A stretch of 64,000 nucleotides of DNA from Albula goreensis (taxonomy: Eukaryota > Chordata > Actinopteri > Albuliformes > Albulidae): the NCBI GenBank assembly GCA_022829145.1, contig CM040758.1:22810575-22874574 (forward strand). The letters are read 5' to 3'. Numbering within the stretch: the stretch's first letter is position 1; each line of letters opens with the position of its first letter. The translations under genes were made by a program, and so were the position numbers. Below are positions 3,574-55,689 of the stretch, one piece after another. The notes under the pieces are model-generated. The model was not told the origin of the DNA. It worked only from the letters and a program-made list of their open reading frames with translations, and did not search any database.

Positions 3574-9254
<5,681 letters not shown>

Positions 9255-13233: not shown

Positions 13234-22723
<9,490 letters not shown>

Positions 22724-27788: not shown

Positions 27789-30700
27789 TCATAGCTCTTG
27801 CTTGTCCTCGTACAGACACATGCAGGAGGCCCTCTGACTGTCCAGGTATGGCTTGCAGCCCAGGTGCATCACCGCATCAAACAGCAGGTTGACCGCGGTC
27901 TCGCATGCTGGGGACCAGCACAGGTAAACACATGTATACATGAATCAGTGTGGCACAGGTAGGATGTCAGCTGCAGGTAAGTATAACATCAGGTGTGTCA
28001 CTGTAACAGGTGGAGTATGTTATGACTCATCACCTTCAGTGTGATTGAAGAAATCTGTAATAGGGGTTTAGAGTCTTCAAGGTTCATTAGTTAGACATTT
28101 AAATAATAATCAGAATATGCAACCATTACTGTTGTCAATACTAGGTTAGCAAGCAAGTCACTGCAACTTAGCTAGGTCACTGCCATTTTTTCTCTCTGAA
28201 CTTGGAATACCCAACTTTATTTGTCAAGCAACAGTTGTTTTTTACTTGCAAATTAATTAAAGAGTTCCTTTCTGCACAAAATTGTGAGGATGTTGATCTT
28301 ACCTTGCACGCTATGGGACAATCCCAGTGTCCTTTGCACGTTCCTGCAGATGGTCTCCAAGCAGAACTGGAACTGCTCATCACAGTCATGCTTGTCACTC
28401 CCGCATGTATCATAGCAACGGTCGTGTTGGTTACAGCATTTAGTCATGGACGGAATGCCGATATCAAACTGTAAGTGAGAGGTAAAACTCTGAGAGAAGT
28501 GATCTGAGAGAAGAGCAGACGCATTGGAGGTTTGTTGATATGTACAGCTGGAGTAGTAAAAGCTATCTGTTACTACAAGTATAGCTAACCTACAGTATAA
28601 TTCTAGTTCATTTCTAAGGTTGTAATTTCTATTTTCCCAACAGCCTTTAGTAGGCCGCAGTGCTGGCCCAGGGTCACATTTGGGTTCTCTATCTCAGCTA
28701 TGCAAATGCAGTCAATACCTCTAAGCTTCAGGCAAATTTTTTGTGCACAGAATAGAATAATTATAAGGTCGAATCCACTTGCACACCTTTTAATTGTGTG
28801 TATATGTCTGTGTTCGTGACTTTTGTCTGTCTGTCTGTCACGCTAAGCTGATGACAACCGTACTAGTGTAATTTAATGAGAGATATTGATGATGAAAATA
28901 CTGTACTTGAAGTCCAAACATTGGAGATCCACACCCATTGGGTGGAGGTGGTTTGTAACCACGACGAGGCACTGGTTTATAACCTATAAGTGAGAAACAT
29001 AATTAGAGCTTCTATAGACCTTCCTCAGCATACAACATGCAATAATACAAAAAAGTGTTTCAATATCAGGACTAACAAATATACAATGTTTCCCAGGCTG
29101 AGCACTAACCTGAGACTGCTTTAAAAGCATACATTTGGTTAGGCAAATGAAAACACAGTGGTAAAGAGGAATGAAGCATCTGGCCAACAATCTGTGATTA
29201 ATGAGTGGGCTGCCTCGTTCATTACAGCAAACATGCTACTTGTACAAAGGCTGTTTCAAGTAATAAAACTATAATAAAGTGCACAGCCCACTACATTAAT
29301 AGCATCATAACAACAACACAGAACATTACAATCAGACCAACATCACAAATAACACCTCATTAATAACAATATAAGAACAACAGAGAAATCCCCTCATCAA
29401 AGCATTATAGCATCAAAGACCACTTTGTTATAAATAGCAAATATGTCATTACATTAATAACAGTTTAATACGTCTGACTTGTTAATAGCACTATAATAAC
29501 AATACAGACATAATAACAAAACAAAGGCAAATTAGAAGATAGCGACAGCATACAGGTCATTGATGCGGTCTCATCCGCCTCTGTAGATTATACGATTCTG
29601 TGCAGCCCTAATAAGAGCTATCGTCAGTGACATGAGATCTGAAACGGATATGTACAGCAAATATTCACAAAAATTCACAAAACAACAAAGCACCTCTGAC
29701 ATCTACTTCCAGTCACCATTGAAACAGTAAGGAAGAGTCTTTCTAATCTGAGACATCATGAACCGGACCCTGACTCTGGCACTGTTGATAATCTCATCAC
29801 TGATAGGATAGGATACGTTTGAAAGTAAATGATTTGCATGTCTTGCTCATGAGAAAGTGGACTGAGATAAAGCAGAATTTCCCTCCTGCTGATAAACATC
29901 CACGTGAGGACTGTCTCACTCACCGCAATTTCCCAACCATTACATCAACTGTTTGACAATTATGAGAAGCAAAGTACTGAAAAACACACCAACAAGATGT
30001 CCAACTTTAAATTGTCCGAAAAGTCATACATTGTCCTACACTGAAAAGTCCCATCTGCACACTGCTCATGTTAAATAGATGATTACATTGACAGCTGGAT
30101 AACACTTTGATATGAGAGCTGTGCGTGAGCTGGCTTGCCAGCTTGTGTGAAACCAGCAAAATTCAACTAAATGAATTGGCCAGTAATGTAACACTGACTG
30201 ATGAGCCAGCCACTAGTTTGGGACGTGGTTTCAGGGACGAAATACTAACATTATGAGTTACACTTTATTCGCGTTTATTGCTTTGCGCACATATATGCAT
30301 GTGCACTATTCGAATAATAGCTGTAGGAACAGTTGCACAATAATGACAGATTACATTTTAATAGAAATTTAACTTAGGCTCAGCCAAGTGGGATACTGTT
30401 CTTTTAGGTAGGCAACTATGACCCAGTCCTTAGTCTCCTCATCATCTTGACCTGCCCAAGGCCCCAGTTATGTCCCAAAAGGTCAGTGAATAAACGGAAG
30501 GAAAGAAAACACCCTGGTCTGGCCTGGTACAACAAAAAAATCCAACAATTGGTTTGCACCCATCTTAAAGTACGTCTAGAGACTACTTTCCTGCGCCAGT
30601 ATGCCTTTCAAATAACCGTATATATTATAATTGTCAAATAATACAATATTAGTCATTGCTTATGGAGATTCAGTGATGTGAAGGGGTGGCGTCAAAATCA

Positions 30701-31131
30701 TTTGGTAAATTGTCATTTAGCTGGTCAACTTCTCTTCCACAGCTGCAGCCCACGCACTTAGGTACCGGGGCTGTGACGTCACCACCAGACTCACAACCTG
30801 CTACGGCAACCACTGATAACGTCACCGAGACATCAGCTATCATAGTACACGGTACCAGAATGGGTCCACTACTGCAAAGCGATCACAATAATGTACATTT
30901 TGACCCCTTACCGTCGCTGCATTTGTAATGACATAATCCATCTTCCCCTCCAAATAAGTCAAGCGCTGCATTGAGATACGTATCTATCTTATGAATCCCA
31001 TTCCGGATAGTTTTTAGAGTCATTCGCCAGTCCGGGGTTTCTGGCTCACGGTCTTGATTGCATTCACACAAGCGGCTTACAAATCCAAATGAAAACAGTA
31101 CAACAAAAACGGAGAGGAAAAAGTAGTGCAT
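27789..31131 (-). CDS. pla2g12a: PLA2G12A, secreted group XIIA phospholipase A2 (complete)
   Basis: Four coding exons on minus: 30912-31131, 28907-28983, 28303-28468, 27789-27907. They have GT..AG boundaries, are in frame, and encode 193 residues (human about 189). The enzyme family hydrolyses the sn-2 ester of phospholipids with Ca2+; group XIIA is secreted and has a divergent Ca2+ loop. Visible features are a hydrophobic signal peptide at residues 1 to about 24 (MHYFFLSVFVVLFSFG..), the conserved TLKTIRNGIHKIDTYLNAAL block, a PNGCGSPMFG loop (89-97), the catalytic motif CCNQHDRCYDTC with His114-Asp115, and a C-terminal Cys-rich part (HLGCKPYLDSQRASC). The start at 31129-31131 is preferred over an in-frame ATG 30 bp upstream because it places the signal peptide at the N-terminus. 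PLA2G12B is unlikely because the catalytic His is present. Confidence 0.95.
28984..30911 (-). other. pla2g12a intron 1
   Basis: Intron of 1.9 kb. It holds a consensus TGACGTCA at 30774-30781, about 130 bp inside the intron from exon 1, and a second 'aacgtcacc' nearby. It is otherwise AT-rich, and no exon or element is recognised. Confidence 0.55.
30774..30781. promoter_or_regulatory. Consensus cAMP-response-element word in pla2g12a intron 1
   Basis: A full TGACGTCA palindrome close to the first exon. Function is inferred only from motif identity and position. Confidence 0.3.
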
Positions 31132-31649
31132 AGTCCACCCGATACGATTGCTGCCTATCAAAAAGCGTTGTCTTAGCCTTCTGATGAACTACAAGTGCAT
31201 AATTCGTATTTTGTCTAGAACTAGTCTATGTTACGTCAGTTCATTTGACTGTCTAGCTAAACAGTTGCTTTAGGATGTCAACACCATTGCGTTATCCCAG
31301 GTTTCTCGTTCCGGGTTGTATATGCACGTGACTGTAACTCAGACGTGATGACACCACAGTACACGTTCAGAATCGACGTGGTCGGAAGGTCGTCTCTGGT
31401 CCAAAGTACAGGGTTAGTGGGTCGTCTCATATCACTCATATATTACAGCCTCGATAATATTTGCATTGAATGGTTCTTTATTGAACTCGATGCGTAGTGT
31501 TCATCTCAACGCGCAACAAAGCTTTTTGTTGTATATGTGATAAGTTCCTAGTGCTACTTAAACAGTTTAAGCATGCGTTATCTAGTTAGTTACGTTTAGT
31601 AAAAGAGCAAATAAAGCAAACAAACGGAAGTGTCAAGCAACAAGGAAAA
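31132..31649. promoter_or_regulatory. pla2g12a upstream region, possible divergent promoter
   Basis: About 500 bp upstream of pla2g12a. It contains an E-box-like CACGTGAC (about 31325-31332) and an ETS-type CGGAAGTG at 31625-31632 oriented toward the plus strand. pla2g12a transcription would start between the ATG and about 31250. Whether a plus-strand transcript also starts here is unproven. Confidence 0.35.
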
Positions 31650-38861: not shown

Positions 38862-38975
38862 CTCTTGGAATTTAGAATAGAAACATACTTCATTCCGAGA
38901 GACTGGAATTTAGAATATCAACACATTTCATTCCAAGAGATTGGAATTTAGAATATCCACACACTTCATTCCAAG
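38862..38975. repeat. 38-bp tandem repeat, about three copies
   Basis: Units begin at 38866, 38904 and 38942 with 'tggaatttagaata', followed by 'cacttcattcc.agaga'. The period is exactly 38 bp. It is intergenic. Confidence 0.85.
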
Positions 38976-41799
38976 ATAAGGAGAAAGGCCCCTAGGCATA
39001 ATTTGCAGGGGACTGGGGATCTGTCCCTCGTCAATAATCGTGACCCAGTAACCTGATAACCAAAGTAACCAAGTAATTTAATGCTGTATGTGCAAACATT
39101 GAACAAGCCCCCCCCCAACCCCCACTTCATTTAATGGTAAAATGAAAAGTACACCCTTGGAAAGGCCAGTGAGACCCTACTCAGTTTGTTATGACATGGA
39201 CACATACCAAGATACACTGAGCTTGGTGTCTTATCCTTTTGGCCATGTCTGTGACAAATCAAATGTGATCACAGAGATTTCTGCAGCAGTTGCCATGGCA
39301 ATTCCAAAGCCTGTGTCATTTTCCCCTTGTCATTAAGATGGTATTAAAATATTTATTTATGTATCTGGGGAAAAAGCATATATTCCTCAATTGCATTGCA
39401 TTTGTTAAATATTTTTTGTGATAATTATATCATGCTAACTGCATATAAGCGCATATGCGTGCATTCATATTGCAAATCATATCAATATTCAGACTCTGAC
39501 CTCTCTCAGCGAGCAGAAATTCACAGGCCGAGTCCAAGCTGTCAGAGTTAAGTGAACTACGCCTTATTTCCATTGAGTTTGTTGTACTTTTTACCCATGC
39601 TGGCTCTCAGGAGACATCTCTACTGCCTCCAGTAGAAACACAGGCACTTTATCAAAGCTATGAATGGGCTCCCAGTGGTGTATTCAGTAACCTGTAGCCA
39701 TCAGAGTGGGGGATTGCTCAAGTCTTGCCCCATGGGCTCAGGGGCTACCGGAGGAGACGCGTCCAGGAAACCGATGGGGAAAGGAGGAGAAGGAGGAGGG
39801 AGAGCGAGAGGAGGAACATTTTCTCAAGGTAGTCACCAGCCGCCCCCGCCCCCCCCGCACCTCACGTGTTAAACATTCCAATTTTGTGTTCGATCGTTGC
39901 GGGGGTGTCGTCTCAGAGCAGGCTTCAGAGTAGGTGCAGGGTTGTATTCCCGACCAGTGCTGAAACACAATGAATCAGCTAATCAAGGTTTTTGATTGAA
40001 GATTTGTTGAATTAGCGGATTCAATACTGGGGCTATAACAAAAACCTCTGTTTGAATGCATTTGTGGTAAGTTTAAAAGTGATGCCCCTTCTAGCTTGCT
40101 TCTCAGGAATAGGCACTGAAGATTGAAAGACCTTTAATATACTGTCCATTTATGTTAGCAATGTTTAATAATGTTTCTCCACTTGATGCTTTATCACTAC
40201 TGCGCTACATGCTATTCTGTCATCAATGGTTTCCTTTCAGCTTCTGTGATATGCATTCCATATCTTGGCTTTGTGGCCTGGTAAGTCAAAAACAGCTCTC
40301 GAGTGAATAAAGAATAAATAACACACTACATTAAAAAAAGAATCCACTCGATGCTGATAAAGAAATCCTGAGGTTTCAGTTTAACAGCTGTGAAAAAACC
40401 GGAGCTTCCAGTAACAGTGCTTCAATGGGTATCTGGTACAGTAGGTGCCAGCGGCCCCCAAAATCCTGAGGATGGCGGTTTTTGACACAATATGTGGATC
40501 ATCCTAACCTAATCCTGCCATTTAAAAAAAAAAAAAAAAAAACTTGTGAATGACATTATTTGTCTTTTCTCACCACTGAAAGATAAATGAATATAAAGTG
40601 GTCCAGTACAGCATTTTTTTTTCCAGCACAGGTTTACTCATTTATGCATTTTGTATTTTTGATCTCCCATACACTCTGATGACCCTCATTATTGGTGAAG
40701 CATCCTTCAAACAGTAAGTACACTGTAGCAATATTATAGAAATGGTGATCTGATGAAGAGATATTTACAGTCATTTATGTAAAAAAAAGTCTCATTATAT
40801 ATAATAGATGTTATCTGCATGAAAAATAGAGAATTAATTGGATGTATGCTACTCACTGCCATTTGCATGTCATGTTTTAAAAGAGGCTGTTTTGATGTAC
40901 CTAAATAATGGCCTTCTTAAAGTGGAACAAACTTGGTATTCATGTACAGTAACTTCACCCTCTGTGTACCCTGACTATAATCAAAACTACTGTACAACTA
41001 CTACTGCAAAATCCACTACTTTAACTCAGTGGCCTACGTCGGTCCTGGAGAACCTCTGAGTGCTCTGGCTATCATTTCCAGTTTAACATCAGCAAATTAG
41101 GGAATTAACTGTGTAATGAACTACTTAAATTGATTAAGTGCTGAGTTAAAAAACCAGCATGCCCTCCTCTCCCCAGTCTTTGTACCCCTGCTTTCTTTCC
41201 AATTTAAATGAATGCAACTGTGGCAGAATCAAGACTCAAGACCTTTGTCTTTTGTGTAATTGCATGTCTTTGTTTTAACATGCTACCACGTTGTTTTATA
41301 GTCATGTTTCCTTATTTTTCCACTGAGTACTTGACAGAATTTACATTGTACTACAGTGTTACTATGGATTAATGCTGCCTGCCTCTCATCCTGGGTTGTG
41401 TCCAAAAAGTTTTCCTATTCGCCATATAGTACACTGTATAGGGATTCGGCCTATGAGGCTACTGCTAACTCCATACATAACCCACTATGTAGCGAACGAG
41501 GAGTCGTTTTGCACACGGCCCTGGTGTTCCACAGTTCCATGGTTTTAGAGATGCCGCTCTGCCACCAGTGAGTTAAATTCAAGCTCCTGTCCAATAAAAC
41601 CCTCCAATTAAGGCAATAAAACTGAGTTAAGATTGTAATTGAATTTGACCAGGGGCCAGAAACCGGTAGATCTCCTTCGGATTCCACAGTCACTGGTAAA
41701 TTATCTCCTAAATACAGCAGGTTTCAAAGTACATTACCGAGTGATTTCTTCAAATGCCATCTTTTGTAATGATTAAGGAATTGGAGTGTTTGTCCTTTG

Positions 41800-51438: not shown

Positions 51439-51440
<2 letters not shown>

Positions 51441-51530
<90 letters not shown>

Positions 51531-51539
51531 ACACACACA
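51441..51539. repeat. Long (CA)n microsatellite, about 99 bp
   Basis: CA run with a single 'ca-ta-ca' interruption near its 3' end. The open frames across it encode only Thr/His or Cys/Val repeats and are artefacts. Confidence 0.97.
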
Positions 51540-51707: not shown

Positions 51708-51838
<131 letters not shown>

Positions 51839-53460: not shown

Positions 53461-53508
53461 GGTCGATCGAATAGCTATGTCCTTACCCCTGCTCTACCTG
53501 CATCCTCA

Positions 53509-53868
53509 TATCAAACTGCTGAAGCTAAGCAGCCACACCACCCTGTACCCTTCTACTGTCACACTGCTGAAGCTAAGCAGCCACACCACCCTGTACCCTT
53601 CTACTGTCACACTGCTGAAGCTAAGCAGCCACACCACCCTGTACCCTTCTACTGTCACACTGCTGAAGCTAAGCAGCTATACCACCCTGTACCCTTCTAC
53701 TGTCACACTGCTGAAGCTAAGCAGCTATACCACCCTGTATCCTTCTACTGTCACACTGCTGAAGCTAAGCAGCTATACCACCCTGTACCCTTCTACTGTC
53801 ACACTGCTGAAGCTAAGCAGCCACACCACACTGTACCCTTCTACTGTCACACTGCTGAAGCTAAGCAA
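53509..53868 (+). repeat. 48-bp minisatellite derived from the 5' half of 5S rRNA
   Basis: The word GAAGCTAAGCA occurs eight times, at 53521, 53569, 53617, 53665, 53713, 53761, 53809 and 53857, at an exact 48-bp period. Each unit reads 'ctataccaccctgtaccc' ... 'ctgctgaagctaagcag', matching by position about nucleotides 10-59 of vertebrate 5S rRNA (CCATACCACCCTG .. GAAGCTAAGCAG). Copies differ by a few substitutions (ccacacc versus ctatacc). Because 48 is divisible by three the array is open as a 16-residue repeat; that is a by-product. Confidence 0.93.
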
Positions 53869-54290
53869 ACTTAGTTGATGACAATTCCTGAAAAGCTAAG
53901 TTTCTGGTGTAAGGGGTGTCAGTGTACCTGTAGGGGGCACTCCTCCCTCTCAACCAAATATAATTACAATGACCCAGCACAGCGATGGCAGCACTGTGCT
54001 GTAGAAAGGTGTCATCCTTCAGATAAAATGTTAAAAAAGAAAGGTCCTGACTCACTGTGGTCATTAAAGGCCCCTTGGCACTTTTCAACAGAGTGGAGAT
54101 GTTAACCCCAGTGTCCTCATCAAAACCTGCACAAACTGGCTCTTTATATCTGCCCATGAAATCAACCCCCCTACAGGTGACTGGCTGCACAATGCCATGC
54201 GTACCCTCCCCACTTCGATTCCCCAGGTCCTCGCTGCAAGTAGAGAGCTTTCAGTCAACCTCCCAGGTTAAATAAAGGTTAAAAAAACCC
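53869..54290 (+). mobile_element. 5S-rRNA-derived SINE (SINE3-like) body
   Basis: Directly after the 5S-type array comes a SINE body of about 420 bp with phrases typical of fish 5S-derived SINEs: 'agggggcactcctccctct', 'aaggtgtcatccttcag', 'aaggtcctgactcactgtgg', 'aaaggccccttggcac', 'ttaaccccagtgtcct', 'ttccccaggtcctcgctgc' and a 3' end 'ccaggttaaataaagg' plus A-rich tail. The 5S 3' half (box C) just after the array is badly diverged. No protein is encoded. Assignment is from recalled fish SINE consensus phrases. Confidence 0.82.
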
Positions 54291-55689
54291 ATATCAGCTT
54301 AGCAGGTGGATTATGCTGCGTAAAGAACTGGTTGCAGACTGCATGTGAGGTCAAGTGTCCACTTTCCCGATCTGACCGATAACTTGACTGAGAAAAGGCG
54401 GTCTTGCAGACTGGAGATACGTGACATACAGCTGAGCAGACCAAGCTGGAGAGAACAATATTAACCAGTGATAAAAAAGCCTTTTCTGAAAGAGACAAAG
54501 CAACTTGTGTATGGATGTGTAATAAATTCAGTAATGATCAATTCAGGGCAATTTTACAAATAATACTTTATGAAAGTATGGGAATAAGCTCTAGTAGAAA
54601 AAAAAACATTGTTTCTGTTTAGAGATCAAGCAGGTCTTTTGAGATGGTTGTTAACTTTAAATCAATGCACGTACCAAAACTGCTGAGCAATTTAGTACAG
54701 AATTTCTGGGAGGTGAATGTGACATGCAGTTTAAAGAATGTAATGTGCTTGGGTGTGAATTCCTGTTGTTTCCGGACATTGATGGTAAGGATGCTAGCCG
54801 TTAGGGGATTCGTCATTCACCTGGATGTTGTATTTACTGAAACTCCCATGGATGTGAAGATCGTTGCGGTGAAAGGTGTTCAAGTTTTTAGTGAAATGTC
54901 ACTTTAAATAGCAGAGCGCAGGATTAGCGGGGATGCTAACTGACAGGAGTGATGAGTCTGTGGCATATTGGCACAGATGTTTCTATCTGAGCGCGCTCAG
55001 ACTTTTCAGAAGACTCACTTGAGACACAAATCCCTCTACACCACAGGCTTCCTCTGTCTCCAGGGGAGTTTCCCTCCATGCTAGCCAGGTGTATGATCTA
55101 ATGAGAGACTAATTACTCTCTTGATGCTGCATCTGCTACAAAGTTCTCCTACAGAAATGTAACATGCCACAACACATTAATACAAGCAATCAAGTTTGGG
55201 ACATTTTTAGAAAAAGCACCAATATGTGTGTCATACAGAACAAATCATTTTAAAATATATTTTCTCAGCAAAACTTCTCTGGGACAGCCAAGTGGCTGTG
55301 CATTAACTCACTGTTGAATAAACAAATGAAACAATATCTGGAAACCACGGTAACCTGTGCATTTGTCATAGGGCATTTCCCTTTTTGACTGGTTTACATG
55401 TTTATAGATTTATTTGCATTCATAGATTGTATAAGGTTTTTGCATAGATGATAATTCAACACAGCTCATTTTAGTCCCTCAGAGACCAGAGATTGTACTG
55501 TGTTAATTAAAGCCAGCAGCGGCAATGGAAAGATATCTAAATATGGATGTATTAAATAATGAAATTAAATTAAAGACATTCCATATTTAAATATTAAGAT
55601 GTTTTAATAGTTTGGAGTGCTTCAGCCCGGCAGGCAGTGAAAAAAAGGAGTATATGGTTAAAGAGTATATGGTTTGTCAGGGACTATGG

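Follow-up and report, generated by a model that had tools for sequence, protein, structure and literature searches.

A distally clustered 48-bp minisatellite, probably derived from the 5S-like head of a SINE, in Albula goreensis

The stretch of DNA analysed here, called the window, comprises 64,000 nucleotides of the Albula goreensis genome (C18:22810575-22874574), in an assembly of 931.9 Mb and 208 contigs. Eight of its open reading frames were scanned, and four of them carry WD40, LRR or PLA2G12 domains, which fits a vertebrate, the other four being without any domain. The exon-like frames lie at 28253-28693 and 30883-31188 (minus strand; both PLA2G12), as well as at 4774-5118 (plus) and 16365-16628 (minus), with WD40 and LRR domains. 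The window is also home to several simple repeats: a perfect (CA)64 at 51710-51837, about 1.7 kb before the array described below, a (CA)50 at 97% (51440-51539), and two short tandem repeats, one of 38 bp in 2.9 copies (38866-38976) and one of 42 bp in 2.3 copies (6800-6893). The subject of this article is a 48-bp tandem array that runs directly into a SINE. Its parts are as follows:

53481..53531, forward strand: what is left of the SINE's own head, 5S-derived and of the ancestral variant (...CTCATATCAAACTG...), bordering the array on its left side (alignment to the ancestral head)
53511..53867, forward strand: 48-bp tandem array, 7.4 copies (TRF, repeat search, unit listing)
53857..53867, forward strand: last box A half, GAAGCTAAGCA, at the junction of array and SINE (positions; SINE consensus alignment)
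53868..53965, forward strand: 3′ half of the 5S head in damaged form, and beginning of the SINE body (consensus alignment)
53868..54302, forward strand: SINE body and 3′ end, with the tail AAATAAAGGTTAAAAAA near 54270 (SINE profile, nhmmer 53810-54302)

TRF delimits the array at 53511-53867 (period 48, 97% matches), with a score of 651 that is the highest among the 19 TRF rows of the window. Read in 5S phase, 53531-53866 consists of seven full 48-bp units. There are eight GAAGCTAAGCA ends at a regular spacing of 48, the first at 53521 and the last at 53857, and the leftmost of them is within a diverged unit. An earlier sequence-only reading had spoken of an eight-copy array of 48 bp; given the period and these eight ends, the wording is fair. 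The same reading had placed the whole feature at 53509-54290, which holds for the array and the body, while the left edge has to be moved to about 53481, where the SINE's diverged head begins: 53481-53531 scores 58 points against the ancestral head, as compared with a mean of 20.3 and a maximum of 40 in 300 shuffles, and the score of this left flank is exceeded or tied by one of 39 control flanks. The overlapping stretch 53497-53534 matches the unit at 80%. On the other side, the SINE is recognised by nhmmer in a leave-one-out run (53810-54302, E 4.7e-63), and about 17 nt present in the SINE consensus are absent just after box A, in agreement with the decay that had been claimed for the 3′ part of the promoter. 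A perfect 12-nt inverted repeat (ACCTGTAGGGGG) is found inside the SINE body, at 53926-53937 and 54167-54178. When the window was compared with itself by BLAST, no second copy of the array or of the SINE body was found within it.

The unit aligns to nucleotides 8-59 of 5S rRNA with 31 points, the 5S reference in pairwise scoring being a hand-entered sequence, whereas the best of 1000 dinucleotide shuffles of 5S reaches 23. The unit thus beats random sequence, and it is indeed the 5′ part of the head that was amplified. A second method confirms this 5S origin at a sister locus: L012:3195-3311, which spans the last unit and the sequence downstream of it, passes the gathering threshold of the RF00001 (5S_rRNA) covariance model over model positions 1-120 (42.3 vs 38 bits, E 8.1e-6). 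Among the other five array loci in the Rfam run, L021 reaches 23.9 bits, below the threshold of 38, and four have no 5S match; in the window itself Rfam gives no 5S match, either at gathering or at E up to 10. Two further Rfam matches were taken as chance, namely SMCR2_1 in the window (E 2.5) and SCARNA7 in a GT-rich stretch of L016. The 5S control region is the province of TFIIIA and includes box C, and each unit holds only its 5′ part, the box A end. The unit is therefore improbable as a 5S promoter, and since it is without the 3′ part of the control region and the stretch after box A in the window is damaged, a role in Pol III transcription is unlikely. The repeat would be non-coding, is unlikely to have a function and need have none, is unlikely to be a working Pol III promoter, and is probably unstable.

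A genome search with the array yielded 148 first-look candidates, the best 40 of which were scored, with at least 197 matches in all; from these, 40 loci were taken, that of the window included. All 40 are arrays, 357-2565 bp long, and each contains between 7 and 52 near-full units. With as many as two mismatches allowed, a 40-base pattern that spans the junction of two units has 1042 matches in the whole genome (439 forward, 603 reverse), and the reversed pattern, used as a control, has none. The 40 loci and these junction matches make the repeat a dispersed minisatellite rather than a single event. A shorter form of the unit, without the first one or two bases, occurs at 20 of the 40 loci (L009-L048), always beside the full form. 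Pattern scans for the SINE or the array in viral and prokaryotic contig collections gave no match.

How is this minisatellite tied to the SINE? The SINE profile was made from 12 downstream flanks picked by eye, and each of the 12 is recovered when left out of it (weakest E 1.8e-12); three linked loci outside the profile are matched at E ≤ 1.4e-22, including L028, whose SINE starts 180 nt from the array. In total, 15 of the 40 loci have a SINE on the 3′ side of the array, in the same orientation, and at most of these the terminal unit runs directly into it. No SINE comparable to these was found in the 40 upstream flanks, where the best match (E 0.0028), at the linked locus L032, is on the other strand. 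The remaining 25 loci have no clearly recognisable SINE beside the array, with weak matches at L037 (0.0014), L036 (0.0027), L040 (0.0084, other strand) and L017 (0.017). The sequence-only reading had named many satellite copies unlinked to any SINE as the finding that would tell against it; this is seen in part, 25 loci being without a clear SINE and 15 having one. The phases at which arrays start are weakly concentrated (p 0.04), and for five of the 40 the starting point is unit column 45 (AGCA or AGCC), which is the SINE 5′ end. Array 3′ ends had seemed to pile up in unit columns 13-25, an impression that was discarded because the end phases of the 25 loci with no clear SINE are not concentrated (Rayleigh p 0.47).

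The SINE itself belongs to a dispersed family. The window body (53868-54290) matches 39 other places in the genome at 69-78% identity, among 40 scored of 289 candidates, which upholds its identification as a SINE body; as none of the 39 is a close copy, the family looks old. It shows both the 5S-like head and the dispersed, multicopy common body of a 5S-derived SINE (SINE3/5S). One head is the norm in such elements; among 29 further copies examined for tandem heads, L072 has two, both old, and none has three or more. The 5′ half of the head is kept in six of these 29. Compared with 5S, the one-headed L053, L060, L063 and L071 score 48-73 points against shuffle maxima of 35-40, and L072 (35 vs 35) and L058 (39 vs 39) do not exceed theirs. 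The SINE head starts with GCCAGCAGCCATACC or similar, at the place where the 5S reference has GCCTACGGCCACACC, and in the one-headed copies the 5S-like head that begins there continues past box A. In L060, AGCAG stands at the 5′ end of the head and a second time at box A, at a distance of 48 bases that is exactly the period of the array; this spacing was measured in that one clean copy, the 5′ half of the head being altered in L063 and L071. Five SINE copies at C17:3.69-5.99 Mb (L059, L073, L074, L077, L078) share a nearly identical upstream flank ending in ATTGTCAAACAGCC, which may be a local segmental duplication or another repeat that carries the SINE.

Further marks of a 5S-derived SINE are a LINE-derived 3′ tail and target-site duplications. 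The shape of the tail was judged by eye, and target-site duplications give no signal in the 13 SINE-linked loci, whose copies are old (mean 6.31 vs 6.26 in the control), nor in the 27 loci then classed as SINE-free, two of them in fact linked (5.15 vs 5.35). The heptamer CATATCA, seen at both ends of the feature, was rejected as such a duplication, its left copy being part of the SINE's own head. Template switching during retrotransposition, which the earlier reading had offered as one way to form the array, thus finds no duplication signal to sustain it, though in old copies.

Units and bodies differ in age. Over 863 near-full units from the 40 loci, identity is 95.68% within loci and 95.27% between them, the latter figure being inflated since the loci, unlike the bodies, were picked by likeness to the window array. 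Permuting the locus labels 200 times gives a within-locus mean of 95.47 (sd 0.11, maximum 95.73), so close to the observed value that locus structure is slight at most. Several variants are common to loci, C5T at 32 of the 40, T28C at 30 and C3T at 22, always beside the common state. By contrast, for 12 arrays the adjoining SINE bodies have a pairwise identity of 51% in global alignment (39-62%), and of 59-67% in their longest local matches. Units shared across loci whose bodies have diverged so far are not explained by local slippage alone, and the picture of a single SINE with a slipped head has to be given up.

The edges of the arrays are informative as well. First and last units are 92.3% and 92.5% identical to the consensus, as compared with 97.8% for interior units (n=779; p 8e-11 and 6e-7), and the setting of array edges by BLAST may add to this divergence. 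An ancestral state, either A in column 31 or CA in columns 24-25, is found in 21 units; 19 of them are no more than three units away from the end of an array, and the remaining two are in L014 and L021. At the window locus the order is an ancestral left border (53481-53531), a core of derived type, and then the SINE body; a derived core between ancestral head remnants is seen in part at L015, L031 and L047 too. Judged from sequence, this arrangement points to a core that was either brought in from another place or overwritten. An ancestral head to the left of the array is significant singly at six of 33 loci, and the combined p of 0.14 is not significant.

The arrays are also concentrated near chromosome ends, which were assumed to coincide with contig ends. 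None of the 40 is more than 6 Mb away from a contig end, a zone in which 31% would be expected on these 18 contigs (p 7e-21). Exact matches tell the same story from C1 to C4:43.39 Mb: 19 of 20 places, five of which rest on a single exact match, are within 6 Mb of an end (22% expected, p 4e-12). For the SINE copies the figure is eight of 24 on contigs of known length; of 15 on contigs of unknown length, ten are no further than 6 Mb from the contig start, and seven of the ten belong to one C17 group. Overall, 18-23 of 39 SINE copies are this close to an end, as against 40 of 40 arrays (Fisher p 8e-9 to 2e-6), and when the C17 group is counted once the SINE figure becomes 12-17 of 33 (p 3e-10 to 2e-7 against the arrays). 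The SINE copies are themselves not clearly uniform, 18-23 of 39 standing against about 31% expected on contigs of known length, an excess due in part to the C17 cluster of seven. Still, the arrays are more distal than the SINE copies, so that the distal bias is mainly a property of the arrays. An impression that arrays occupy one end only of each contig (17 of 18 contigs, five with a single locus) was abandoned, C1 and C3 having matches at both ends.

We consider it probable that this is a SINE-derived satellite, formed from a 5S head and spread among distal loci by recombination, partly into the heads of resident SINEs. Its parent would be an old SINE family whose 5S-like head (GCCAGCAGCCATACC...) carries AGCAG twice, 48 bp apart. 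Misalignment between these two copies would duplicate exactly 48 bp and so set the period, by way of a two-headed stage for which one old copy, L072, stands as an example. In one SINE copy the unit would then have changed from CATGTCAAAC to ACTGTCACAC, a direction suggested by L060 and the array edges, and the changed unit would have expanded by unequal exchange. Ectopic recombination or gene conversion may have carried the array to many near-end loci, where it would have arrived partly in the heads of old resident SINEs, by homology, leaving a derived core between ancestral remnants and body. The narrower proposal that resident heads served as homologous landing sites, many old heads near the ends being invaded by a single derived 48-bp array, is tentative, possible rather than probable. 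If true, it would mean that a dead SINE family gives docking sites to a satellite made from its own promoter.

Other histories have to be weighed against this one. Arrays might have been born separately in many SINE heads and been homogenised later by gene conversion between chromosome ends, in keeping with the distal clustering and with the survival of ancestral states mainly at array edges; we find this somewhat unlikely, and it is indistinguishable here from the spread of one array, both needing exchange between loci. Without any such exchange, slippage would have had to occur independently in each SINE head. The two AGCAG copies 48 bp apart in L060 may indeed predispose a head to it, and L072 is an old two-headed copy, but old heads would amplify their own mutations, and the derived ACTGTCACAC and the minor variants are common to loci, which makes this course improbable.

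Could the array have travelled with the SINE instead? In SVA the VNTR moves together with its element, and a multi-headed SINE might likewise be a mobile unit, its array carried by reverse transcription. The arrays joined to a SINE at 15 of 40 loci, and the five that start at column 45, would suit this; yet bodies that share 51-67% beside units that share 95%, the lack of a direct-repeat signal at array edges, the 25 loci without a clear body, and the absence of copies with at least three heads among 29, six of which keep the 5′ half of the head, together make it most improbable. The probability is slighter still for a satellite taken straight from 5S rDNA and lying beside SINEs by chance: such satellites are known in fish and the unit is 5S-like, but its middle is of SINE type (GTACCCTTCT...) rather than 5S type, and the SINE is found on one side and one strand only, at 15 of 40 loci.

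Compared with known systems, the repeat appears as a SINE-head-derived, distally clustered minisatellite, of a kind already known among SINE-derived satellites and distinguished by its 5S head. B1 and Alu are 7SL-derived SINEs. Minisatellites grown from SINE sequence are likewise cited in PMC9659126, namely a VNTR family of B1 origin in the mouse (Bois et al., 1998) and minisatellites associated with Alu in humans; as far as that citation describes them they have other units and no 5S head. The 5S rRNA-derived SINEs tabulated in PMC3747384 (SINE3, AmnSINE1 and OS-SINE1, fish included) resemble the parent element in their 5S head and in being dispersed elements with a body, a likeness drawn at the level of the table. 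The SVA retrotransposon, which is named in PMC5753468, similarly has a VNTR inside a composite retroelement; unlike it, Albula goreensis combines old bodies with young arrays, and joint movement of repeat and body is not seen (51-67% vs 95%, no duplication signal).

The closest known system is that of the squamate satellites sSat1-3 (Vassetzky et al., 2023, PMC10702118), which derive from tRNA-related SINEs and have units of about 70-290 nt. In the available portions of that account the resemblance is extensive: the tandem unit is a part of the SINE and shorter than it, the terminal unit runs into the SINE (here at 15 loci of 40, and not at 25), the units are more alike than the SINEs, and subtelomeric positions are preferred (here all 40 arrays are no more than 6 Mb from a contig end). 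Another sSat trait, the presence of four or more homogeneous units at numerous loci, is found here as well (40 of 40, with 7-52 units). The differences are the 5S-related head and the 48-bp unit, together with the shared core between ancestral head remnants, which is not met with in those portions of the sSat description. Among the matches listed for open-licence PMC papers, there is no satellite from a 5S-headed SINE.

Whether such satellites are restricted to squamates was called uncertain by the same authors (PMC10702118). The present case points to SINE-derived satellites beyond tRNA-type heads and, Albula goreensis being a fish, beyond squamates. It is an open question how satellites come into being, and likewise how a single unit gets to many loci that are not linked; since one genome here contains the parent element, a two-headed step, repeats that may have set the period, ancestral borders and a shared core, the steps are testable. 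The passage to satellite DNA from a short piece of an old jumping element, a piece that had itself come from a ribosomal RNA gene, can thus be examined in this fish.
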